DNA of 64,000 nt from an uncultured Clostridia bacterium (GTDB taxonomy: Bacteria > Bacillota > Clostridia > Oscillospirales > Acutalibacteraceae), in contig CAMCPL010000002.1 in NCBI GenBank assembly GCA_945876745.1, positions 1 to 64,000 of the forward strand. The letters are read 5' to 3'. Position numbers and translations under genes: made by a program. Under the pieces are notes generated by a model. It was not told the origin of the DNA. It was given only the letters and a program-made list of their open reading frames with translations, and did not search any database. Shown here in pieces: positions 74-10,615 of the stretch; within the stretch, counting starts at the first letter, position 1; each line of letters opens with the position of its first letter.

Positions 74-111
74 CCTTGCAGGTTTAATTATCTGCGAGGT
101 TTTTTATTTTT
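74..111 (+). terminator. Intrinsic terminator before the phage operon
   Basis: The stem CCTTGCAG/CTGCGAGG (one G-U pair) is followed by TTTTTTATTTTT. It ends transcription entering from the left, which suggests that the phage-like operon downstream is an independent transcription unit and does not continue an upstream operon. Confidence 0.7.
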
Positions 112-113
112 GT

Positions 114-143
114 TTGACAATTCCTATCTTTTTGCAGGTATAT
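114..143 (+). promoter_or_regulatory. Putative promoter of the phage operon
   Basis: TTGACA is followed after 18 bases by the weak -10 sequence GTATAT. The -10 lies inside the first of two imperfect 26-base direct repeats, so control by a protein binding those repeats is plausible. This is inference from position only. Confidence 0.4.
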
Positions 144-220
144 GCGCAAATGATGAATATCGGGCGGAAAATTAAAATATTTTCGCTTTTTTGGGCAGGA
201 ATATGCATAAAAGGTGAATA
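134..220 (+). repeat. Two imperfect 26-base direct repeats
   Basis: Copies at 134-159 and 195-220 match at 21 of 26 positions. Both begin GCAGG, contain ATATGC and end TGAATA, and they are 61 bases apart. They lie between the -10 region and the first phage gene, which suits an operator or activator site. Confidence 0.5.
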
Positions 221-296
221 AAAACGCCGTTTTCAGCCTATGGGTGAAGGGCGTTTGAAAAATGCACTTCGAAATATCGGTGAAGGGTGGTCAAAT

Positions 297-626
297 ATGG
301 CACGAAAAAAATTGAGCGTTCAGGAGCAGGTAACGCAGGGCTTAACTCAGCTTGCACTCGGCTCGGTGAACGACGCAGTATCGCTTTTGTTTATGAGCGA
401 GGAGGAGATAATGCAAAGGCTTCCTAAATTAAAGCTCTTTAACGTAAGCGAAATAAAACGTCCCAAGGGCGGAGGAATGGAGATAAAATTCTTCGACAGA
501 ATTAAGGCAATGGAACGCCTGTCTTATACCGAAGCCTCACGGCAGGAAAGTGGGCTGAGCTTTTACGAGGCACTCGAAAAAAGTGCAGTAAGGGCAAGCA
601 GGGAAAACGGTAATGATGAAATTTAA
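297..626 (+). CDS. Phage terminase small subunit-like protein
   Basis: A protein of 109 residues, shorter than usual small terminases. Its middle carries the pattern GGMEIKFFDRIKAMERL, which resembles the conserved C-terminal segment of PBSX XtmA-type small terminases (an EIK..D..KALE motif). The N-terminal DNA-binding helix-turn-helix of that family is not evident, so only the subunit-contact part may remain. I chose the ATG preceded by GAAGGGTGG; the frame is open 19 codons further upstream, but that start has no ribosome site. It overlaps the large terminase by 14 bases. In a working phage it would recognise DNA for packaging. The assignment rests on this motif and on gene order. Confidence 0.6.
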   Translation: MARKKLSVQEQVTQGLTQLALGSVNDAVSLLFMSEEEIMQRLPKLKLFNVSEIKRPKGGGMEIKFFDRIKAMERLSYTEASRQESGLSFYEALEKSAVRASRENGNDEI

Positions 627-1866
627 GCCTTTTTCCGCAAAGCAATTAAAAACGCTGAATTGGTGGTGCGTTGGGAGTAAGGATTGCGGCAAAAACGGCT
701 TGATATGCGACGGTGCAGTAAGATCGGGCAAGACGCTTTGTATGTCGCTGTCGTTCATATTTTGGGCATTTTATTCGTTTTCGGACACCTCGTTTGCACT
801 TTGCGGCAAGACTATAAGCAGTCTTCGGCGCAATGTTGTCACCCCCATAATACCTATGCTGACCTCACTCGGATTTACAGTAGAAGAGAAGCTCAGCAGA
901 AATGTTATTGAAATAAAAATGAACGGCGTGGAAAACAGATTTTATCTTTTCGGCGGCAGAGACGAAAGCTCCGCTTCGTTAATCCAGGGTATGACCTTGG
1001 GCGGCGTTCTTTTTGACGAGGTTGCGCTTATGCCGCGTTCGTTTGTTGAGCAGGCGCTTGCAAGGTGCTCGCTTGAGGGCTCAAAATTTTGGTTCAACTG
1101 CAATCCGGAGCATCCGTTTCATTGGTTTTATAATGAGTGGATAAAGAAAACCGATGAAAAAAATATGCTCTATCTTCATTTTACAATGCAGGACAACCCC
1201 TCGTTGTCGAGCGAAATCCGTTGCCGATATGAAAAATTATACACAGGTGCGTTTTACGAAAGATTTATTGAGGGCAAGTGGGTTGCCGCAGACGGCTTGG
1301 TTTATCCGATGTTTTCGACGGCAAAAAACGTTAAGGACGGCAAAGACTTTTCACAGTACTATTTAAGCTGTGACTACGGCACGGTCAATCCCTTTTCGCT
1401 CGGACTTTGGGGAAAGGGGTCGGACGGCTGGTACAGGATTGACGAGTACTATCATTCTTCAAGGGATAGGGGCGTTCAGCTTACCGACGAGGAATATTAC
1501 GAAAAGCTAAAGGAGCTTTGCGCCGACAGAAAAATAACGGCGCTAATCATTGACCCGTCCGCCGCATCGTTTATTCAAACGGTGAAGCGACACAACGAAA
1601 TAACCGTAATAAAAGCGGATAATGACGTTTTGGCAGGTATAAACAGAGTATGCTCCGCACTCAAAAATCAGGAAATATTTATATCGCCCAAATGCACCGA
1701 CTCCATTAGAGAGTTTACGATTTACAGGTGGGACAACGATATAAAAAGAGACGCACCGAAAAAAGAAAACGATCACGCAATGGACGATATAAGATACTTT
1801 GTCAGCACCGTGCTCAATAGCGACAAAGAGGATTATTCGTTTTCGATTGCAGTAGAAAGGAAGTGA
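613..1866 (+). CDS. Phage terminase large subunit (PBSX type)
   Basis: The 417-residue DNA-packaging motor. The ATPase half has a Walker A DGAVRSGKT (33-41) and a Walker B GVLFDEV (131-137), followed by the conserved segment FWFNCNPEHPFHWFYNEW (about 159-176). The nuclease half has the expected acidic residues: D254 in SCDYGT, D314 in LIIDPS, and D387/D391/D392 in DHAMDD. This is the arrangement of Terminase_3/XtmB proteins. Length and motifs are complete, so the motor looks functional. In its family it pumps DNA into the prohead through the portal encoded next and cuts it with the C-terminal nuclease. Confidence 0.93.
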   Translation: MMKFKPFSAKQLKTLNWWCVGSKDCGKNGLICDGAVRSGKTLCMSLSFIFWAFYSFSDTSFALCGKTISSLRRNVVTPIIPMLTSLGFTVEEKLSRNVIEIKMNGVENRFYLFGGRDESSASLIQGMTLGGVLFDEVALMPRSFVEQALARCSLEGSKFWFNCNPEHPFHWFYNEWIKKTDEKNMLYLHFTMQDNPSLSSEIRCRYEKLYTGAFYERFIEGKWVAADGLVYPMFSTAKNVKDGKDFSQYYLSCDYGTVNPFSLGLWGKGSDGWYRIDEYYHSSRDRGVQLTDEEYYEKLKELCADRKITALIIDPSAASFIQTVKRHNEITVIKADNDVLAGINRVCSALKNQEIFISPKCTDSIREFTIYRWDNDIKRDAPKKENDHAMDDIRYFVSTVLNSDKEDYSFSIAVERK

Positions 1867-1870
1867 AGCC

Positions 1871-3025
1871 TTGGGCATTTTCAAAAGAGAAAGAAAAAAC
1901 GGTGAAAAGCCGAGCGTTGAAGCTTCAACCTCGGTACAGACAAGCTCGCAAAATACACATCCGTTTAGATATCTCAACGGCTATATTCCGCTTGAAAACA
2001 CGGACAATCAGGTTTACAGGTCAATTAGGGAGGGCGTTCCGCTTATTGACAGCGCAATAAACAAGATTATCAGGCTGATGGGTGGATTTGAGTTCAAAAC
2101 CGGTGACGACGCACTCGATAAAAGAGTTAACGAGTTTTTTGAAAGGGTGAATGTCGGCGGAAATCAGCAGGGAATTAATGCGTTTGTCGATAATTTTATG
2201 TCCCAGCTTTTGACCTACGGCACGGCGGTCGGCGAGATGGTGGCGGACGAATACGGCTTTTATGCGCTTTACAACGCAGAGCTGAAAGCGGTTGAGGTTA
2301 AAAGAGCGAAGAACAATCTTGACTTGGTATTTTATCCGAATACTGTTTCCGGCAGTCAGCCGTTTGAGCATCAGGACAGAATATTGTTTTGCGTGCTTAA
2401 TCCCGAAGCGGGGCAAATAACCGGCACAAGTCTGTTAAAGGGCTTGCCGTTTGTTACAGATATTTTGCTTAAAATATTCAATACAATAGGCACGAATTGG
2501 CAGAGAGTCGGCAATTTGAGATATGCCGTGACATATAAGCCGCAGAATGACGGAGTGGACAAGGCGTTTGCAAAGGAAAGAGCAAACCAGATGGCGAACG
2601 CTTGGCGTGACGCTATGAGCAGTAAGGACGCAGTAAAGGACTTTGTGGCGGTCGGCGACGTTAAGGTGAGCGTTATCGGTGCAGATAATCAAATACTTGA
2701 CAGCGAGGTGCCTGTTCGACAACTGCTTGAACAGATTGTTGCAAAGACAGGACTTATGCCGTATATGTTCGGCTTGTCTTGGTCTACAACCGAGCGAATG
2801 AGCTCACAGCAGGCAGACGTTCTTACTACCGAGCTTGAAGCGTACCGAAGAATTATTTCGCCGGTGATAAAGAAAATCGGCGAGGCGTATTTGAAGAGCT
2901 TGGGCATTTACCGTGATGTGAGCGTTGAGTGGAGCGAGATTACCTTGCAGGATGAAACACAAAGCGCACAGGCTCGTCTTTATAATGCACAGGCAGACAA
3001 TTTATTAAAGGAGGGTGAAAATTGA
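1871..3025 (+). CDS. Phage portal protein
   Basis: A 384-residue portal in the standard place after the large terminase. It resembles the XkdE/SPP1-gp6-like group in having an N-terminal region entering an IREGVPLIDSAINKI helix, a GTSLL segment, and a C-terminal LYNAQAD...LLKEGEN helix. It begins with TTG preceded by AGGAAGTGAAG, four bases after the terminase stop. The portal forms the ring through which DNA enters the head and to which connectors attach. It is somewhat short for the group but continuous. Confidence 0.85.
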   Translation: MGIFKRERKNGEKPSVEASTSVQTSSQNTHPFRYLNGYIPLENTDNQVYRSIREGVPLIDSAINKIIRLMGGFEFKTGDDALDKRVNEFFERVNVGGNQQGINAFVDNFMSQLLTYGTAVGEMVADEYGFYALYNAELKAVEVKRAKNNLDLVFYPNTVSGSQPFEHQDRILFCVLNPEAGQITGTSLLKGLPFVTDILLKIFNTIGTNWQRVGNLRYAVTYKPQNDGVDKAFAKERANQMANAWRDAMSSKDAVKDFVAVGDVKVSVIGADNQILDSEVPVRQLLEQIVAKTGLMPYMFGLSWSTTERMSSQQADVLTTELEAYRRIISPVIKKIGEAYLKSLGIYRDVSVEWSEITLQDETQSAQARLYNAQADNLLKEGEN

Positions 3026-3978
3026 CGCAGGGTATTATCCTAAAAAGCGTTGCAACAAACGAGGATTTGGCAAAGATTCAACAGTTTTCAAGGCGCGAGC
3101 TTTTGCCTGAGGAAATTTACGTTTTCAATGTTGATTTATGCAACAACGATGTCGACAGGGATTACGAAAAGTTTTCTGTTGAAACGCTGAAGCAAATGGC
3201 AGAGCTTTTCGTCGGCAAAACGGGAATTTTTGACCATTCGATGAAAAGCGCCGACCAGACGGCTCGAATTTTTGACGCCTTTGTTGAAAAGGTAAACGGA
3301 AAAAAGACTGCCGACGGTGAGGATTTTTACAGCCTAAAGGCAAAGGCGTATATGCTCAATAATGAGGAAAACAAATCTCTCATAGACAGCATTGAGGCAG
3401 GAATTAAAAAAGAGGTTTCCGTTTCGTGCAGTGTTGACAAGGCGTATTGCTCAATTTGCCATACGGACAGAAAAAGAGCCGCCTGTGAGCACAGAAAGGG
3501 CAGAATGTACGGCGACAGGCTATGCTTTAATATTCTCACCGACGCAACTGACGCTTATGAATTTTCGTTTGTTGCAGTACCTGCACAGCGTGAGGCAGGC
3601 GTTACAAAATCATTCTCGGTTAAGGAGGAAGCAGAAATGCAGGACATTGTAAAAATGATTAGTCAGGGTGACGAGCTCACTCTTTCAAAATCGCAGACAA
3701 ACGAGCTTTATTCCTACATAGAGGGCTTAAAGCAGGAGGCGGAGCTTGGCGAAGCCTACAAGAAGAAGCTGATTAAGCAGGTCGTTGACCTATTCAAATC
3801 GGCTTTTCCGAAAATGGACGAGGCGCTTTTCGTATCGGTTGCCTCGGTTATGACAAGCAAGGAGCTTTTGGGCTTTTGCGACGGTATGAAAAAGAGCCTT
3901 AACGAATCTAAAATCAAGCCTCAGCTTGCAGTTAAGGCGGAAACAAAAATGAATGATTACTCAGACTTTAAGATTTAG
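3022..3978 (+). CDS. Prohead protease fused to scaffold-like domain
   Basis: A protein of 318 residues beginning at TTG with a strong AAAGGAGGGTG site, overlapping the portal stop. Residues 1-200 resemble XkdF-type prohead proteases: an early NVDLCNNDVDRDYEKF segment, a GIFDHSM motif, KEVSVSCSV, and an EFSFVAVPAQREAGVTKS ending, as in HK97-like S78 proteases. A compact Cys/His cluster (CSICHTDRKRAACEH) sits before the last motif and could bind a metal. Residues 200-318 are helical and charged, as expected for a scaffold or delta domain. The known role of the family is shaping and maturing the capsid. Confidence 0.75.
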   Translation: MTQGIILKSVATNEDLAKIQQFSRRELLPEEIYVFNVDLCNNDVDRDYEKFSVETLKQMAELFVGKTGIFDHSMKSADQTARIFDAFVEKVNGKKTADGEDFYSLKAKAYMLNNEENKSLIDSIEAGIKKEVSVSCSVDKAYCSICHTDRKRAACEHRKGRMYGDRLCFNILTDATDAYEFSFVAVPAQREAGVTKSFSVKEEAEMQDIVKMISQGDELTLSKSQTNELYSYIEGLKQEAELGEAYKKKLIKQVVDLFKSAFPKMDEALFVSVASVMTSKELLGFCDGMKKSLNESKIKPQLAVKAETKMNDYSDFKI

Positions 3979-3989
3979 GAGGAAAAAAT

Positions 3990-4349
3990 ATGTCAGTATC
4001 ATACAACGGTTTTGATGTTAAATGCATCACATTTGAAAAGAAGCCGTCAACTCAAATTATCGCAGGTGATTTGGTTGCACAGGGCGCAGATGGCTATATT
4101 GAAAAGGTTAGCGCGAACGCTCCGTTTTTCGGAGTTGCTTCATGCGTAAGAGATAATTTTGTTACGGTTCAGATTAAGGGCTATGCAGAGCTTGAATACA
4201 CAGGCTCAAGCGCACCGTCCGGTCTTTGCAAGCTCGTATCAAACGGCGCAGGCAAGGTAAGCGTTGACTCGTCAACTACCTCCGTAAACCCTGCAAGAAT
4301 GGTGCTCAAGCGCGACGAAGCAGCAAAGAAAATCGGCGTAGTATTATAA
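3990..4349 (+). CDS. Probable capsid decoration protein
   Basis: A 119-residue, beta-rich, glycine- and serine-rich protein between the protease-scaffold and the major capsid gene, with an AGGAGG site. The position and the small beta character fit a head decoration or cement protein, which stabilises the shell. I see no motif that proves it. A conserved hypothetical head protein is the alternative. Confidence 0.55.
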   Translation: MSVSYNGFDVKCITFEKKPSTQIIAGDLVAQGADGYIEKVSANAPFFGVASCVRDNFVTVQIKGYAELEYTGSSAPSGLCKLVSNGAGKVSVDSSTTSVNPARMVLKRDEAAKKIGVVL

Positions 4350-4367
4350 TTTAAGGAGGACAAAAAT

Positions 4368-5351
4368 ATGACATTTGATACCATTAAGCTCGACAAGGGC
4401 TTGTACACATCGAACAAGGGCTTTACAAGAGCGCTTGAGGAAATTGACCCGAGTGAAAACTATATCGGCACAGAGCTTGAGGGTCTCGACGCTTATGAAA
4501 GACAGCTCAAGAGATTCGATATCAAGGTAAAGGGTGCAAATTCCGACACTATTTCAAAGTTTTTCCAGACCTCGGATTCGGCGGCTTTGTTCCCGGAATA
4601 CGTTTCAAGAGCAGTAAGAACAGGTCTTACAAACAACATTCTTGAAGACTTGGTTGCAACTACAACTATTATCGACAGTCTTGATTACCGTTCAATCGAA
4701 TGTGTTGAGTCTGAAAAGGTAACAGACGGTAGGGATTTTATCAACGAGGGTACTCATATTCCGGAAACCGTTATTAAGACAAACAGCAATCTCACCCAGC
4801 TTCACAAGGTGGGCAGAAGCCTCGTCGCTTCATATGAAGCACTTAAATCGCAGAGACTCGACCTTTTCACCGTTTCTCTCGGTCAAATCGGTAATTATAT
4901 CGCAAGCTGTGAGACTATGCAGGCAATTAATACGCTTCTCGGTGCTACAAAGAGCCTTGATTATGCAGGTGATGAAATTGCATACGCAGACCTTATTGAA
5001 ATGTGGAAGAGCCTTGCGCCTTATGAGATGAATACACTCATTGCAGAGGGTGACAATGTTACAAAAATTCTTCAAATGAACGAGTTCAAGGATTCGTATG
5101 CAGGACAGAATTTCCACGCAACAGGTCAGCTTGCAACTCCTGTCGGTGCAAAGCTTGTTTATTCTCCGACAAATATTCTTTCGGGCAAGGTTATTGCGAT
5201 TGATAAGCGTTATGCACTTGAAAAGGTACAGTTCGGCGACATCGTTACCGACTTTGACAAGCTTATCGACCGTCAGCTTGAACGTGCGACAATCACGCTT
5301 ACAAGCGGCTTCAACCGTCTCATCGACGGCGCTTGCGTTATCGCGTCTTAA
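4368..5351 (+). CDS. Major capsid protein
   Basis: A 327-residue protein with an AAGGAGG site. It has the expected shape for an HK97-fold coat protein: a charged, helical N-terminal part (about 1-80), then a domain with FINEGTHIPE and a long spine-like helix (KVGRSLVASYEALKSQRLD), and a C-terminal beta segment (ERATITLTSG). It follows portal and protease, as in PBSX (XkdG). No independent motif identifies it, but length, place and the pattern of a long helix followed by strands are consistent. It would form the shell around the packaged DNA. Confidence 0.8.
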   Translation: MTFDTIKLDKGLYTSNKGFTRALEEIDPSENYIGTELEGLDAYERQLKRFDIKVKGANSDTISKFFQTSDSAALFPEYVSRAVRTGLTNNILEDLVATTTIIDSLDYRSIECVESEKVTDGRDFINEGTHIPETVIKTNSNLTQLHKVGRSLVASYEALKSQRLDLFTVSLGQIGNYIASCETMQAINTLLGATKSLDYAGDEIAYADLIEMWKSLAPYEMNTLIAEGDNVTKILQMNEFKDSYAGQNFHATGQLATPVGAKLVYSPTNILSGKVIAIDKRYALEKVQFGDIVTDFDKLIDRQLERATITLTSGFNRLIDGACVIAS

Positions 5352-5366
5352 TCGGGAGAGCAGGCT

Positions 5367-5711
5367 ATGACGATTGATGAGGTAACAGGACTTTTGCGTA
5401 TAATATCGGATTTTTCCGACGAGGAGATAGAATATTATTTTCCTCTTGTGCAGATGTATTTCAATCAGTACAGGGACATTGACGCAGAGCAAGGAGACAG
5501 AGAAAAGCTCGTATATCTTGTTGCTTCAAGAATTTATTACGAAATCTCGAAGCTGCGAATTAATGCCGACATTAGCTCGTTTAAGGCGGGAGACATAACT
5601 GTGACCTCCCGTGAGAGCGGTCTTCAAAAAGCGAAAAGAGTTTATGAAGCGGCGCTTGAAAACGCAGGCGGCTTAGTCGAGGACACGGGATTTGTATTTA
5701 AGGGAGTGTGA
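5367..5711 (+). CDS. Head-tail connector (first, XkdH position)
   Basis: A protein of 114 residues, mostly helical, directly after the capsid gene. The pattern of an N-terminal acidic helix, then LVASRIYYEISKLR, then TVTSRESGLQKAKRVYEAA resembles gp6/gp15-like adaptor proteins that bind beneath the portal. The role is inferred from position and helix content. Confidence 0.65.
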   Translation: MTIDEVTGLLRIISDFSDEEIEYYFPLVQMYFNQYRDIDAEQGDREKLVYLVASRIYYEISKLRINADISSFKAGDITVTSRESGLQKAKRVYEAALENAGGLVEDTGFVFKGV

Positions 5712-5713
5712 GT

Positions 5714-6082
5714 ATGCAGAAAAAGGATTTGGAAAGCATAATTCGAGTTAAGCTTGAAGAATACGGACAACCCTGCACAATCACTCTGTCAAACGGCGAG
5801 GTCATTACCGCAAGGGTGATGACCAAACGCCTTTGGCAAAACGACAAGACGAGGTTTGACTCCGATATGACGATGCTCGGAAAAAGCAGCAAGGATTATT
5901 TGGTTGTTTATCTGCCGAATGTATATGATTTCAGTCTTTGCGGTGAAGATGATATTTTGACGCTCGGTGCGGAAGAATACCGATTTGTAAAAACAAGCGC
6001 TTATTACACGGCAGATAAGATTATTTACTATTACTGTGTAGCAAGAAAAATTATCGGGGAGGACGAAAATGTATTTGAATAA
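5714..6082 (+). CDS. Head-tail joining protein (XkdI position)
   Basis: A 122-residue, beta-rich protein. I chose the ATG because AAGGGAG lies seven bases before it. A GTG six bases earlier overlaps the upstream stop, but its ribosome site would be too close. Small beta-barrel stoppers occupy this place in PBSX/SPP1-type heads and keep DNA in the capsid. No diagnostic motif is visible. Confidence 0.55.
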   Translation: MQKKDLESIIRVKLEEYGQPCTITLSNGEVITARVMTKRLWQNDKTRFDSDMTMLGKSSKDYLVVYLPNVYDFSLCGEDDILTLGAEEYRFVKTSAYYTADKIIYYYCVARKIIGEDENVFE

Positions 6083-6470
6083 AGAAATAGACGAGGTTAT
6101 TCATACCTTGCGAAATACGAACGAGCTTAAAGAGATTTCTTTTTTGAAGGCGTTTCCGTATGTTACAAAGCCGACAAGGCTTTCGAAAAGATGCGCCGTT
6201 TTGTCTCCTAATTCACTTGAGCTTGAAAGCGTAAGCGTTGACAATACCGATTTTTACGGCACGGGAGAAATAAGAATTGACTTGTTTTGCCCTTATCATT
6301 TGGGCTCGCCGGTAATATTTGACGATATGCAAAAAATTGTGAAAGCGTCGCTTAATGACGAAATAAGCAAGATAAGCATATCGGCAATATCGGTCGATTC
6401 CTCGTGTGAATGTTATGTGCTTACAGCGGTTTTAGGCTTCGGGTATTACGAAAAAACGGAGGAACTATGA
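6069..6470 (+). CDS. Tail terminator or completion-like protein (XkdJ position)
   Basis: A protein of 133 residues overlapping its neighbours on both sides. The order of N-terminal helix, central strands (ELESVSVDNTDFYGTGEIRIDLFCPY) and C-terminal strand (YVLTAVLGFGYYEK) resembles tail terminator/completion proteins that close the tail and bind the head connector. In a full phage the sheath and tube genes would follow at once; here they do not. Confidence 0.5.
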   Translation: MYLNKEIDEVIHTLRNTNELKEISFLKAFPYVTKPTRLSKRCAVLSPNSLELESVSVDNTDFYGTGEIRIDLFCPYHLGSPVIFDDMQKIVKASLNDEISKISISAISVDSSCECYVLTAVLGFGYYEKTEEL

Positions 6471-6571
6471 TGGAAAACGAGAGCACGGCAGCTATTTTGA
6501 AAATTGAGGAAATCAGCGATATTGTTATGCTTGATTCAAGGCGTTACGACAACGGCTTTAGAGGTGAGTAG
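6467..6571 (+). CDS. 34-residue unknown protein at the missing-tail junction
   Basis: A short frame with a good ribosome site (GGAGG, four bases before the first ATG), overlapping the connector stop by four bases and ending just before the LysM-protein gene. The peptide is acidic at its start (MENESTAAILKIEEI) and ends in RRYDNGFRGE. It lies where sheath, tube, chaperone and tape-measure genes would stand. It could be a remnant of one of these, a small adaptor, or a translated linker that keeps coupling. I do not recognise it. Confidence 0.5.
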   Translation: MMENESTAAILKIEEISDIVMLDSRRYDNGFRGE

Positions 6572-6574
6572 CAG

Positions 6575-7090
6575 ATGAAAATGATAAAAATGAAATACCG
6601 TGATTTTGAATTTGAGGTGAATCCGAGCGAGGTCAGTATGAAGCTGACGAAGAATATTTCAAAAACGGATTTTACTAATTACGGTGAAAAATGCGAGGAA
6701 ATAAACAAAAAGGGTGCGATTATTTCCGGCAAGGGCTATTTTGTCGGAGAGGACGCAATGAACAAGGCATATGCACTTGTCAGGGTTTACAACAAAAAGG
6801 GAAGCGATTTTCTTTTTACGCCGTTTTGCAATCCGAAAAAAATGCTTTTTACTTCGCTTGAAATTCATTACAGCGCGTCAGACAGCAGGGTCGAGTATTC
6901 ATTTGAATTTACGCAGGACGGCTTTGAGAAAAACGAGAATTATGATTTCGGCTATACCGTCGCTCTTGAGGGTGAAAATCTTTTCGACGTTTCAGACAGG
7001 ACGGGAGTTGAGATTCAAAGGCTCGTATCCCTTAATGATTTCGGCGATTTGTTTGCCGTTAGGGAGGGTGACAGGATATGGCTGATATAA
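6575..7090 (+). CDS. LysM-containing tail protein (XkdP-like)
   Basis: A 171-residue protein. The N-terminal two thirds are beta-rich and include a GKGYFVGEDAMNKAYALVRVYNKKG segment. The C-terminal 45 residues form a LysM-type repeat with YTVALEGENLFDVSDRTG and a final GDRIWLI. PBSX XkdP and related proteins have this layout and link the tail tube or tape measure to the baseplate hub. Its family partner, the tape measure, is absent upstream. Confidence 0.75.
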   Translation: MKMIKMKYRDFEFEVNPSEVSMKLTKNISKTDFTNYGEKCEEINKKGAIISGKGYFVGEDAMNKAYALVRVYNKKGSDFLFTPFCNPKKMLFTSLEIHYSASDSRVEYSFEFTQDGFEKNENYDFGYTVALEGENLFDVSDRTGVEIQRLVSLNDFGDLFAVREGDRIWLI

Positions 7091-8028
7091 GCATTTCACT
7101 TTTTGATTTGAATGAATGTGAAACGGTTGTTGATAATTTAATATCGTATGAGCTTTGCGAGGATTGCGACGCACCGTGCGACAGCTTAAGTCTGACGTTT
7201 TTTAGCAAAAAGGTGCTTGACGAAATATACAGGGTTGAGGCGAGCGTTGACGGAAAACGTGTGTTTACCGGCTTCGCCGATACCCAGCGTGAACAGATTA
7301 GTGACAACGGCTTTGTGTGCTTCATTTATGCTCGTTCAAGCGCCTGTCTGCTTACGGACAGCGAGGCAAAACCCTTTACATACAACTCTCCGAGTGCGTT
7401 GGGACTTTTCAAGGCAAACTGCGACGGCTTCGGCTTTAGCTACGAAGCAGGAAATATTTACTGCGAAAATCAGTATCAGGTGAGCAAGGGAACATCAAAA
7501 TTTTCTGCTTTGCAGGATTTTGTTTACGGTGTGACGGGTGACAGAATAAGAATTGACTGTAACAATGCGCTCACGCTTATGAAAACGAAAAACAGCCGCA
7601 CCTTGAAAGGCGGCGTTATCGGCATAAAACGAGTTATTAACCGTGCAAACGCCCTTGAAAAAATCAACTACAAGCTCAATTCTGACAAGGATTATATTTA
7701 CTGCCGTGAAAGCGCTTTTATGAAAAAGCGAAAAATTCGCTCACGGGTAATGAAAAATCTTGCCTATGTTGAGGATTGGCGCAGGGATAAGGTCCTTTCG
7801 AGTGTGATGAAGTCGAAAAACAGCGAATACCATACTTATACAATAATTGTTTCGGGATTTGAGAAAATCGGCCTTATGGACGAGGTTCGGTGCTTTGACA
7901 GCTTCTTCGGAAATATTTGCGGCATTGTTTATTCGGTTGTTCATTCGCAAAGCGGCGGAGTTGAGCAGACTTGTATTAAGGCGAGGATACCGTTTGATTT
8001 GGAGGAAATGACTTATGTGGATGAGTAA
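7078..8028 (+). CDS. Baseplate hub, gpD/XkdQ-like
   Basis: A 316-residue protein starting inside the end of the LysM gene. The N-terminal SISLFDLNECETVVDNLISYELCEDCDAPCDSLSLTF pattern, the following strand and FTGFAD, and the later DRIRIDCNNALTLMK and VSGFEKIGLMDEVRCFD segments fit the late-control-D/XkdQ family of hub proteins. The length is close to XkdQ. In contractile tails the hub sits at the end of the tube and carries the spike, so a hub without a tube is unusual. Confidence 0.75.
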   Translation: MADISISLFDLNECETVVDNLISYELCEDCDAPCDSLSLTFFSKKVLDEIYRVEASVDGKRVFTGFADTQREQISDNGFVCFIYARSSACLLTDSEAKPFTYNSPSALGLFKANCDGFGFSYEAGNIYCENQYQVSKGTSKFSALQDFVYGVTGDRIRIDCNNALTLMKTKNSRTLKGGVIGIKRVINRANALEKINYKLNSDKDYIYCRESAFMKKRKIRSRVMKNLAYVEDWRRDKVLSSVMKSKNSEYHTYTIIVSGFEKIGLMDEVRCFDSFFGNICGIVYSVVHSQSGGVEQTCIKARIPFDLEEMTYVDE

Positions 8029-8368
8029 ATGTTTATCTGAAAGACAAAAAAGCTCCACGCCCGAAAAAGGCAAGGTTACGCTTTCGTCAGGTCAGCTTGA
8101 AGCCGGCTCAACTCTTATGAGCCGAGGAATTGAAAGCTATGCGCCGTACGGCTATCAAAGCAATCCGCCTGTCGGAGAAAGTGTTATGATTATTCCGTCA
8201 AACAGCGGTCAGGCACTTGTCGGAACGCTGTGTAAGGCAGAAAGTCTTGAAACAGGCGAGGTCAGGCTTTCGTCGCTCGGCGGCGCAGTAATCCTGCTTA
8301 AAAACGACGGGAGCATTGTGCTAAACGGCTTGGTAATTAACAAACACGGGGTGATTGAAAATGAATGA
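8015..8368 (+). CDS. Baseplate spike-like protein (Mu gp45/gpV type)
   Basis: A protein of 117 residues with GGAGG nine bases before the ATG, overlapping the hub gene. The pattern of an oligosaccharide-binding-like strand set, then YGYQSNPPVGESVMII, a GEVRLSSLGGAVILLKNDGSIVLNG strand and a short C-terminus resembles Mu gp45-like spikes. Such spikes trimerise into the piercing tip under the hub. PBSX has XkdR at this place, so the cluster is a PBSX/Mu mosaic here. Confidence 0.65.
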   Translation: MWMSKCLSERQKSSTPEKGKVTLSSGQLEAGSTLMSRGIESYAPYGYQSNPPVGESVMIIPSNSGQALVGTLCKAESLETGEVRLSSLGGAVILLKNDGSIVLNGLVINKHGVIENE

Positions 8369-8648
8369 CGTAAAAAATGCAGTTGATACAGATTATATTC
8401 AGGGATTGCTTGAAGCTGCCGTTTTGTGCCTAAATACAACAAAGGGAGGGTTTTATCCCGATAAGGATTTCGGCGCAAAAATAAAATACACTCTTGCCGA
8501 GCCTGAAATTCTATCGCAGGCGCGAGCGTCACTTGAAAGGCTTGACGGAGTGTACGTGAAATCCGTTTGTAAGGCGGAAAACGGAATAGTGGTTTATAAC
8601 CTGACATTAAACGATGACGAAAGGCAGGTGGAATTGAAGTATGATTAG
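8361..8648 (+). CDS. Baseplate wedge protein, gp25/W-like (XkdS position)
   Basis: A 95-residue protein. I chose the ATG with GGGGTGA seven bases upstream. A TTG two codons earlier is in frame but too close to the site. The segment EILSQARASLERLDGVYVKSV and the following strands match the compact gp25-like/DUF2634 fold of wedge proteins. In known baseplates gp25-like proteins start sheath assembly, yet no sheath gene is found here. Confidence 0.65.
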   Translation: MNDVKNAVDTDYIQGLLEAAVLCLNTTKGGFYPDKDFGAKIKYTLAEPEILSQARASLERLDGVYVKSVCKAENGIVVYNLTLNDDERQVELKYD

Positions 8649-9675
8649 CTACGATGAGATACTTCAAAATATGAGAACGGCTTATTTTAATGAATGTGGG
8701 CTGTATCCCGATATGAATACAAAAATCGGAGTGAGTCTTAAAGCTGTTGCAAGTGAGCTTTGCAATTTGAGCGCATACACGGATTATGCCTTGAAGCAAA
8801 GCAACTGGAAAACCGCAACGGGAGCGTATCTTGACGCTATTGCCGCCGAGTGCTCGATTGAAAGAAGAATCGGAGCAAGAGCCTGCGGCACGCTGACATT
8901 TTCACTAAACGAGCCGACCGACAACGTTGTTGAAATTCCGCAGGGAACGATTTGCTGCAAGTCGAAAAAGCGCTTTGTTCAGTATGAAACGGTTGAAAAG
9001 GGCGTTATTTTACCCGGCGAAGGCTCTTGTACCGTTAAGGCAAGGGCGCTTGCAAACGGCGAGGAATACAACGCAAAGGGCAACGAGATTTGTATTATGG
9101 TTACGCCTCCGAGCTCGGTCGGCACCGTTTGTAATTATGAAAAATTCACAGGCGGTTATGACGACGAGAGTGACGAGGTTTTGAGAAGCAGAATTAAAGA
9201 CAGGCTGAAATATCCGGCAAACGGAGTGAATATTGATTTTGAGCGTTCTTTGATTGAAAGCATAAGCACTGTTCACAGCTGTAATATTGTTTTTCGAAGC
9301 GGCGGAGTTTATGTTTATTTGAGGACGTACAGCGGCGTAATAACCGAAAAAGAGATTTCGGCAGTTGTTGAAATTCTCGGATATTACGAGCTTATGGGAC
9401 AGACGGTATTTGTCGAACCGGCAAGCGCAAAAGAGTACAGTGTAAAAATTGATTATTCAGGTCAGGCACAGGAAAAAGAGGTTGAAGAGTTCACGAGGGA
9501 TTACTGTTCTTCTCTCAAGGTCGGCGATATGTTCAGCTACTATGATTTGAGAGAGTTTCTTCTTTCTTCGGGTCTTGATATAAAGAGGCTCTACATCAGC
9601 TGTGAAGCTCAAAGCAGGGCGGATGTAAACGAATACTGCGTTGTTGACATAAGGGAAGTGTGCAAATATGAATAG
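8641..9675 (+). CDS. Baseplate J-like wedge protein (XkdT-like)
   Basis: A full-length 344-residue baseplate J protein. Typical features are the N-terminal KLKAVASELCNLSAYTDYALK-like helix, the GAYLDAIAAECSIERRIGARACGTLTFSL hinge, a beta domain with IPQGTICC, the VTPPSSVGTVCN and FTGGYDDESDEVLRSRI motifs (the latter very conserved in J proteins), and the C-terminal LYISC strand. It forms the wedge rim of contractile baseplates. All parts appear intact. Confidence 0.88.
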   Translation: MISYDEILQNMRTAYFNECGLYPDMNTKIGVSLKAVASELCNLSAYTDYALKQSNWKTATGAYLDAIAAECSIERRIGARACGTLTFSLNEPTDNVVEIPQGTICCKSKKRFVQYETVEKGVILPGEGSCTVKARALANGEEYNAKGNEICIMVTPPSSVGTVCNYEKFTGGYDDESDEVLRSRIKDRLKYPANGVNIDFERSLIESISTVHSCNIVFRSGGVYVYLRTYSGVITEKEISAVVEILGYYELMGQTVFVEPASAKEYSVKIDYSGQAQEKEVEEFTRDYCSSLKVGDMFSYYDLREFLLSSGLDIKRLYISCEAQSRADVNEYCVVDIREVCKYE

Positions 9676-10102
9676 CTTTGTTATTGACGAAAATGCAATA
9701 TTTCAAAGGCTTTGTATCTTGCTTTCACAGGTGGGAATTGATATAGACGATAAGGTTGAAAAGGCAAAGATAAGAGCATATGTTGAGGGCTTGAAAACCG
9801 TGGGCGTCAATCTTTCAAGACTTGTAAGCAACAGTGCATTGAATATTTTTTCGCACCCCTTAAAAAGCGAGCTTGAAAAAGCGTTTGAAAATGAGCAGTT
9901 TGAGCAAGACGGATTGAGCATTAGCTTTACCGATTATTCGGTCGATAAAATCGGCGCCTTGTCATACGCTTGGCTCACTGCGCTTCACACCGTTGATTTA
10001 GGTGCAAACGGCGTAAGCTGGGAATATATTGATGAGCGAAAAATGAGCTTTAGAGATATTGAAAACGCAAAATACAGATGGGATATGATTGAAAGTAGGT
10101 GA
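9668..10102 (+). CDS. Unknown baseplate-end protein (gpI/XkdU position)
   Basis: A protein of 144 residues, starting inside the J-like gene. It is largely helical and ends in a FRDIENAKYRWDMIESR helix. XkdU/DUF2313 or gpI proteins usually occupy this place and close the wedge or attach fibres, but I cannot see their motifs. The function is inferred only from position. Confidence 0.5.
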   Translation: MNSFVIDENAIFQRLCILLSQVGIDIDDKVEKAKIRAYVEGLKTVGVNLSRLVSNSALNIFSHPLKSELEKAFENEQFEQDGLSISFTDYSVDKIGALSYAWLTALHTVDLGANGVSWEYIDERKMSFRDIENAKYRWDMIESR

Positions 10103-10106
10103 TTTT

Positions 10107-10583
10107 ATGGGAAGCTCAAGCCGTACAGAAAATTTAGGACTTAACAGGTGGATAAAGAGCGACAGACCTGTAATGGAGGATTTTAATGCCGACAACGAGA
10201 TCGTTGATTCGATACTCGGAGGACATGTTTCAAACGATGAAATTCATCTAAATGAGACACAAAGACAGGCGCTTGCACTACCGTATGATATGTATATTTA
10301 TCACGGAACAGGCGTCCAAAACAGGGCTATTGAGCTGGGCTTTGACTTTGAGCCGAGACTGTGCATTTTGCTTGCTGTCAGTGCGCCTATCGGAGTTATT
10401 GATATTCCGAACGACACGCATTACAATTACTTCGGCGTTGCGACAAAAAGCGGCTCGACTGACGGACTTACTCTTTCCGGCAAAACGTTGAGCGTAATTC
10501 AGGGCGGTACTATGGTTGCAAGGTATGAAATGCGAAGCTTTAACGAGATTGGCAGAAGCTATTTGGTAATAGGCTTTAGATAA
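10107..10583 (+). CDS. Short tail-fibre-like protein
   Basis: A protein of 158 residues. I chose the ATG after GTAGGTGATTTT; a TTG six codons earlier overlaps the upstream gene. The N-terminus GLNRWIKSDRPVMEDFNADNEIVDSIL is common on Firmicutes phage tail proteins of the fibre or adhesin type. The remainder is beta-rich and could be a small receptor-binding or fibre-cap domain. It is far shorter than normal fibres. The cluster ends here without a terminator, so transcripts may run into the DUF1015 gene. Confidence 0.6.
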   Translation: MGSSSRTENLGLNRWIKSDRPVMEDFNADNEIVDSILGGHVSNDEIHLNETQRQALALPYDMYIYHGTGVQNRAIELGFDFEPRLCILLAVSAPIGVIDIPNDTHYNYFGVATKSGSTDGLTLSGKTLSVIQGGTMVARYEMRSFNEIGRSYLVIGFR

Positions 10584-10586
10584 CAG

Positions 10587-10615
10587 TTTACAAAACGGTG
10601 ATTTAGGCGTATAAT
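10587..10615 (+). promoter_or_regulatory. Promoter of the DUF1015 gene
   Basis: TTTACA-N17-TATAAT. The -10 lies within a dyad (arms TGATTTAG at 10599-10606 and CTAAATCA at 10628-10635), which suggests operator control or a hairpin at the transcript start. Confidence 0.7.

Follow-up and report, generated by a model that had tools for sequence, protein, structure and literature searches.

A phage-derived operon with head and baseplate genes but no tail shaft: a probable gene transfer agent-like locus in an uncultured Clostridia bacterium

Results

Gene content of the operon

The window analysed here, the first 64 kb (64,000 nucleotides) of contig C2 (CAMCPL010000002.1) in the 1.93-Mb, 98.6% complete genome of an uncultured Clostridia bacterium of the Acutalibacteraceae (GCA_945876745.1), carries a phage-derived operon in which tandem open reading frames (ORFs) on the + strand fill positions 240-10583. 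By order, the operon contains the small terminase TerS, the large terminase TerL, the portal, a phrog_16951 protein, a cement-like protein, the capsid protein, three connectors (con1 to con3) and a small ORF, followed by a LysM/DNA_circ_N protein, hub, spike, gp25-like, J-like, gpI-like and fibre-like proteins. Several of these names come via counterparts in relatives or via position, not via a direct match. In phage Mu (AF083977), the sheath, tube, chaperone and tape measure genes precede gp43, and this block is missing from the operon: 104 bases lie between the end of con3 (6470) and the start of the LysM gene (6575). The con3-to-LysM distance, 105 in the window, ranges from 7 to 121 in the 28 relatives with both genes. 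The first-pass annotation of this stretch, an operon of head and baseplate genes without a tail shaft, is therefore confirmed by open frames and family matches; the block that it reported missing is indeed absent from the locus, but the gap holds a 34-codon ORF that it had overlooked.

All features described below lie on the + strand. TerS (297-626), whose start at 297 is likelier than the ORF opening at 240 by comparison with relatives, matches Terminase_2 only at positions 62-125 of 141 (E 0.0059, below the Pfam cut-off), and so is without the N-terminal part of the family, which we take to be the DNA-binding part. Among nine other TerS proteins tested, those of loci L065, L104, L123 and L043 likewise match only the C-terminal part, that of L148 matches from position 46 with 66 residues ahead, and that of the sheath-bearing locus L118 has no match. 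A TerS without the N-terminal DNA-binding domain, proposed as a defining trait of the TerS of gene transfer agents (GTAs) (PMC6854486), is thus found, on weak C-terminal Terminase_2 matches, in the window and in L065. TerL (613-1866) matches PF03237 (4.9e-15). The lysine of Walker A, the D/E of Walker B and three nuclease aspartates are invariant in 99/99 TerL sequences. The portal protein (1871-3025; phrog_30703, 2.6e-127) is followed by a putative prohead protease/scaffold (3022-3978; phrog_16951, 8.9e-92, a PHROG without stated function), a cement-like capsid protein (3990-4349; phrog_4588, 1.6e-12) that is recognised in 20/27 genus loci, and the major capsid protein (4368-5351; phrog_3922, 1.3e-69), for which a sequence comparison with solved structures returned nothing relevant.

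Downstream of the capsid gene, connector 1 (5367-5711) and connector 2 (5708-6082) are assigned by position as head completion protein and stopper, and con3 (6069-6470) as the tail terminator; Pfam and PHROG scans gave no convincing family match for any of the three. The assignment of con3 rests on its AlphaFold2 (AF2) model, which has a predicted local distance difference test (pLDDT) score of 87.4 and whose Foldseek matches include lambda gpU, the diffocin collar and the Mu terminator, and on hhalign, in which the genus con3 scores 98.7 against the con3 of sheath-bearing loci and 0.1 against the tube. Profile comparison and fold together rule out that con3 is a tube in disguise. The LysM protein (6575-7090) matches both LysM and DNA_circ_N weakly; its AF2 model (pLDDT 85.8) has Foldseek matches that include Mu gp43 (9ki1), the diffocin tube tail (8v3w) and the phiCD508 tube initiator, and we assign it as the tube initiator. 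By these models, the two rings that flank a tube, a terminator ring of con3 and a tube-initiator ring of the LysM protein, are both kept, and the two could meet directly.

The baseplate genes then follow the Mu order. They encode a Mu gp44-like hub (7078-8028; phrog_177, 3.5e-7; L118 counterpart PF22255 Gp44-like, 9.7e-8), a Mu gp45-like spike (8015-8368; phrog_25991, 4.3e-9, no stated function; PF06890, E 0.0089, below cut-off), a gp25/gp46-like wedge (8355-8648; no direct match; L118 counterpart PF07409 GP46, 8.7e-7), a J-like wedge (8641-9675; PF04865, 4.8e-27), a gpI/Mu gp48-like wedge (9668-10102; no relevant direct match; L118 counterpart PF10076, 3.5e-6, below cut-off) and, by position, a fibre/receptor-binding-like protein (10089-10583; phrog_33092, 5.7e-5 over 40 residues, unknown function). 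Of the gene names given at first pass, TerL, portal, capsid, hub and J hold by direct matches, LysM by a weak one and "protease-scaffold" only by inference; the connectors and the gp25-like gene have no convincing match of their own, the latter being named via L118, but these genes, like the fibre-like gene, are present in 27/27 genus loci.

Absence of shaft genes from the locus and the genome

Models of sheath, tube and chaperone matched 0/33 genus loci, the window included. In the genome that carries the window, PF04984 found no sheath, PF09393 no XkdM-type tube even at E up to 10, and family-specific alignments neither a tube nor a sheath of the GTA type. Across 60 genus genomes, the PF04984 sheath occurs in two and the PF09393 tube in three, this genome not among them, and the GTA-type tube and sheath alignments each gave one match at E about 0.08, which we judged to be noise. 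The tube hidden Markov model (HMM) built from related loci gave its best genus-locus match at E 0.46, again noise, and genuine matches in sheathless loci of the same family. Hence the sheath and tube genes that mark a contractile-tailed phage or tailocin of the Mu/PBSX type are not found here.

Conservation, selection and inheritance

The portal gene is present once and stop-free in 32/36 other genus genomes and in 1/23 genomes of other families, and 34/34 portal matches have no internal stop. Two genus genomes without a portal match, G001 and G007, are 97% complete and appear to have lost the locus. The locus was fetched from the 32 genus genomes and from G050; with the window, the genus set has 33 loci. 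One genus record, L003 (NZ_FUWW01000003.1), bears the name Eubacterium coprostanoligenes ATCC 51222. All 27 genus loci of sufficient length keep 16 core genes, the small ORF included, in one order. Additionally, a bare operon of 9,995 bp filed in IMG/VR as a viral contig (L046, IMGVR_UViG_2585428093) has the same identities to the window genes as L003.

Ratios of nonsynonymous to synonymous substitution (dN/dS), taken as medians over the 15 closest pairs, or fewer for some genes where saturated values were dropped, range from 0.076 for TerL, the lowest in the operon, to 0.33 for con3. All operon genes thus look to be under purifying selection, as expected of the structural and packaging genes of a GTA, with synonymous sites near saturation here. 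Because TerL is the most constrained operon gene and its catalytic residues are invariant, DNA packaging is, judged from these comparisons, under selection.

A tree of the locus was built by a quick method from TerL, portal and capsid proteins, with 78 rows: 11/33 genus loci (window included), 64/66 other genome loci and three virome scaffolds; L093 and L082 were left out as cut off. Its groups largely follow the host families. Compared with an rpoB tree (60 genomes), it agrees in 93.6% of sampled quartets, with a Mantel r of 0.69 that 0/2000 permutations reach; among 10 genus genomes, quartet agreement is 96.8%. The locus therefore behaves as a vertically inherited, single-copy chromosomal locus, as expected of a GTA. 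The ways in which the first-pass annotation might have failed, a full block in relatives with this genome as the sole exception, or frames decaying at a neutral rate, are contradicted, respectively, by the absence of the block from all genus loci, which is the opposite case, and by the dN/dS medians.

A conserved small ORF between con3 and the LysM gene

The 104-base gap is occupied by a 34-aa ORF (6467-6571; dN/dS 0.225) that overlaps the con3 stop and that we propose to be a reduced tape measure, namely its C-terminal plug. It is kept, at about 30-40 residues, in 28 relatives as well as in the window. An HMM built from the genus ORFs only was run against the 13,734 ORFs from all other loci and gave 31 matches at E<=10, and 25/31 of these are the ORF directly before the LysM gene, in other genera and families; the best match (1.3e-5) falls on residues 144-162 of a 166-aa protein. 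Specifically, in 15 loci of family group f14 the putative tape measure has 159-289 aa and ends in a motif like RD[AS]RR[YF]DG (lengths taken by the longest start, in motif-carrying ORFs). The putative tape measure has 183 aa in L043 and 100 aa in genus group f1g44, where the sheath is still present. The motif-carrying ORF shortens to 25-73 aa in loci where it was recognised and that have only a tube (3/5) or a con3-tube fusion (7/10), and to 28-61 aa in 34/35 loci without a tube.

Cryo-EM structures of Mu offer a rationale for such a remnant. There, gp43 is the tube initiator and carries a LysM domain, the modelled part of the tape measure gp42 is limited to residues 674-690, which pack against hub and spike, and absence of gp42 leaves the spike weakly attached (PMC11915804). 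From position, motif and this structure, we infer that the small ORF is a tape measure cut down to a C-terminal plug of hub and spike.

Shaft states across the order

The portal alignment found one copy each in 70/394 sampled genomes of the order, which we take to be Oscillospirales, 68/70 of them stop-free. In a sample of the class, all 8 portal matches among 391 genomes fall inside the order (373 of the genomes belong to other orders, counted from the order of listing). Because the portal is present in 70/394 genomes of the order and the class-sample matches all lie within it, such loci appear to be a common inherited trait of the order. Sixty-five further loci were fetched and annotated with iterated profiles, giving 66 genome loci from outside the genus, L082 included. 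Families are coded f1, f14 and f26, and genus groups f1g35, f1g38, f1g44 and f14g14.

A sheath is present in 22/66 of these loci and in the virome scaffold L043. The tube is also present in 20/22 sheath loci, the other two (L107 and L154) being cut off there, and in other families a short putative tape measure accompanies sheath and tube. Pfam and PHROGs both confirm the L118 sheath, and the genes next to it match LysM/DNA_circ_N, Gp44-like, GP46 and, below cut-off, Mu gp48. For the tube family, the matches are phrog_27038, of unknown function, and a weak one to a phage 812 tube (E 0.0048). A separate tube without a sheath is seen in eight loci; in five of them (L090, L106, L108, L117 and L044) the baseplate genes are present as far as the locus is in view, and three (L121, L128 and L130) have no J. 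In eleven loci we interpret a long con3 ORF as a fusion of con3 and tube. Pooled, the C-terminal halves of 15 long con3 ORFs align to the tube profile (hhalign 98.0); four members of that group, L082, L105, L116 and L127, are not counted as fused. A terminator-tube fusion would imply equal numbers of tube and terminator subunits, and hence a single ring. In six f1 loci from outside the genus (L109, L112, L125, L126, L132 and L134), finally, the baseplate is kept and neither sheath nor tube can be detected.

On the rpoB tree, the sheath requires at least four changes, and so does the tube with the loci without J left out; such counts give no direction. Since a sheath-bearing member (G403) lies inside f1 and the full block is shared by several families, the shaft was probably lost, and more than once, within the order.

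Other layouts of the locus also occur. In seven loci, L091, L092, L094, L114 and L131 (f1g38) and L096 and L099 (f1g35), head and connectors are present with no recognised baseplate, and no J match was found anywhere in these seven genomes. A genome-wide J search, also used for the loci L127 and L138 that are cut by contig ends and counted as without J, gave no match in 21/25 genomes searched, the window's genome being included as a positive. In f26, L143-L145, L147, L148 and L150 have head genes, con1 and a hub-like gene and no sheath, tube or J; four of the six have a LysM-like gene, and the layout recalls the description of operon I of FpGTA, the particle of Faecalibacterium discussed below. 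In L136 (G347, f14g14), the cement-like and capsid genes are placed before the portal. Three scaffolds from human faeces carry the locus under the GenBank name "Bacteriophage sp.": L042 (MT835508), L043 (MT835769) and L044 (MT835952). One of them, L042, has a 639-aa neighbour (transporter-like by eye) that is also found next to three f1g38 loci, and so resembles a piece of bacterial chromosome entered under a phage name.

Operon borders and an upstream element

The window begins at the contig end (G000:C2:1), so sequence further upstream in this genome is outside view. On the left, a terminator-like site of the upstream transcript (72-101), with a 12-pair stem plus T run, borders the operon, and on the right a promoter-like TTTACA-17-TATAAT (10587-10615; 11/12 consensus positions) precedes the DUF1015 gene. 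Both borders drawn at first pass are thus seen in the sequence, but the totals of terminator-like and promoter-like sites across the region are not above those of shuffles. The DUF1015 gene lies downstream of the operon in 20/33 genus loci, at a median distance of 108 bp, greater in some.

Between the left border and terS lie two copies of ATATGCATAAANNGTGAATA, at 140-159 (3 mismatches) and, 61 bp from it, at 201-220 (0 mismatches). No further copy occurs in the window at <=3 mismatches, with 0.22 expected, and 1/100 shuffles has two. The 19-letter core (<=4 mismatches) is found upstream of terS in 18/31 genus loci, with 0.65 expected from shuffles, and is absent there in 13/31; elsewhere in genus loci it has 13 matches in 531 kb. 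Five loci (window, L053, L055, L056 and L058) share the 61-bp spacing; in two others the spacing is 50 bp. We chose the pattern by eye in the same upstream regions in which it was later counted. The two copies before terS may be a candidate site for a dedicated regulator.

Discussion

A capsid set on a baseplate

Taken together, these findings make it likely that the operon is a vertically inherited, GTA-like particle locus reduced to capsid, neck and baseplate. As to how this state arose, we favour on balance a graded and repeated deletion that runs from a short contractile tail through a tube only and a tube-terminator fusion to no tube, and ends in a capsid on a contractile-type baseplate with a plug of about 30-40 residues, which would deliver DNA free of contraction. 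The ancestor would have had a short contractile tail held between the con3 terminator ring and the tube-initiator ring. Several times in the order, the sheath, tube and chaperone genes would then have been lost while the putative tape measure shrank to its C-terminal peptide of about 30-40 residues; terminator-tube fusion in some genera would fit a single tube ring. In the particle so predicted, the terminator and tube-initiator rings would meet with no tube ring between them, the Mu-type baseplate of hub, spike, wedge and fibre would hang directly under the capsid, and the peptide would still plug hub and spike, a role played in Mu by the 17 ordered residues at the C-terminus of the tape measure. 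An intact TerL and a TerS that lacks its family's N-terminal part would presumably package host DNA by the headful into small capsids; fibre and baseplate would bind, and the DNA would leave through the opened spike without contraction. The first-pass idea of a capsid joined to a contractile-type baseplate, possibly a GTA, thus finds support at the level of sequence.

Several observations weigh against this interpretation. The portal match is absent in 4/36 genus genomes, of which two have a completeness of 97%. In the dN/dS comparisons, synonymous sites approach saturation, and the neighbouring DUF1015 (0.065) and peptidase (0.055) genes are more constrained than any operon gene. The TerS proteins of L097, L100 and L044 match the full Terminase_2 family, and no lysis gene was recognised in the operon, with no search made elsewhere in the genome. 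For the small ORF, just 2/25 positional HMM matches reach E <1e-3, the motif was not recognised in three sheath-bearing f26 loci, 2/5 tube-only loci and 3/10 fused loci, and the Mu gp42 C-terminus bears no evident likeness to it by eye. Neither Pfam nor PHROGs gave a match for its long L118 counterpart (194 aa), so that "tape measure" is a name by position. The tube family has no Pfam match, and only 5/11 loci called fused (L097, L100, L103, L137 and L139) have tube support of their own (E<1e-3, C-terminal half). The particle of the genus is a prediction from genes, as are its protection and transfer of DNA.

Three other explanations were weighed. That the locus is a decaying prophage which suffered a clean deletion, an alternative named at first pass, agrees with its phage origin, clear from family matches, and with the fact that prophages often lose blocks of genes. 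This is nevertheless highly improbable: the shaftless state is common to the genus loci with their order kept in 27/27, frames are intact, dN/dS is low, the tree is congruent with rpoB, and the DUF1015 gene lies downstream in 20/33 genus loci. Neither broken frames nor neutral evolution was encountered, portals being stop-free and dN/dS medians 0.076-0.33.

The other alternative from the first pass, an ordinary tail whose tube, and perhaps sheath, is encoded elsewhere and too divergent for profiles, gains some weight from the fast divergence of tube proteins, the tube domain being barely detectable in several f1 loci, and from GTA genes that can be split, as in FpGTA with two operons ~125 kb apart (PMC12946183). 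We consider it quite unlikely, since four profiles found nothing in the window's own genome, the few sheath and tube matches among the 60 genus genomes lie in others, and the GTA-type alignments gave noise only; moreover, a putative tape measure of ~30-40 residues leaves nothing to measure a tail with. It is also unlikely that a particle is made but delivers nothing to recipients, acting instead as a PBSX-like killing or storage device with a capsid. Such an outcome was left open for FpGTA, citing PBSX (PMC12946183), and without a sheath there is no contraction to drive penetration. Killing by contraction, however, would need the very part that was lost, and the constraint on TerL, the strongest in the operon, together with its invariant catalytic residues argues that DNA packaging is under selection.

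If particles are made, this capsid-on-baseplate arrangement would be a gene-transfer particle of a new, minimal design, and would suggest how the tail-less appearance reported for a gut GTA could have evolved. It would also serve as a natural experiment on the requirements of a baseplate, for which the final residues of the tape measure may be enough. E. coprostanoligenes ATCC 51222 is a named strain that carries this putative minimal DNA-delivery particle.

Comparison with known systems

The GTA of Rhodobacter capsulatus, RcGTA, is likewise vertically inherited and differs in having a non-contractile tail of another type. PBSX of Bacillus subtilis shares with this locus a phage derivation, the packaging of host DNA and a Gram-positive host, and it has a sheath and a tube; B. 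subtilis was positive for both PF04984 and PF09393 in our profile searches. PBSX further differs in that it kills like a tailocin (PMC12946183). Mu shares the order tape measure-gp43-gp44-gp45-gp46-gp47-gp48-fibre (AF083977), and the con3 and LysM-protein models fold like its terminator and gp43, but its tape measure has 690 aa, whereas the ORF here has 34, and its sheath, tube and chaperone are absent here.

GTA-like packaging has been reported in Ruminococcaceae and Oscillospiraceae, and the FpGTA particles of Faecalibacterium, ~40 nm across with about 8.5-9 kb of random host DNA and no identifiable tail, are encoded by two operons (PMC12946183, 2026). The main text of that report contains neither "coprostanoligenes" nor "Acutalibact", and the series of shaft losses, a reduced tape measure and this genus are not among the subjects of the sections consulted, nor of any report in the literature searched. 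FpGTA is described as podovirus-like, with baseplate, fibre and lysis genes in the second operon, whereas the locus studied here has a Mu-type baseplate in the same operon and no recognised lysis gene. By the same description, the two have in common a ~10-kb operon with a TerS lacking an obvious DNA-binding domain, TerL, portal, scaffold and capsid, no replication genes as far as the report states, and tail-less particles, seen for FpGTA and predicted here. FpGTA is the nearest published system; with it, this kind of particle is already known, and the likeness supports the reading of the operon as a GTA-like locus.

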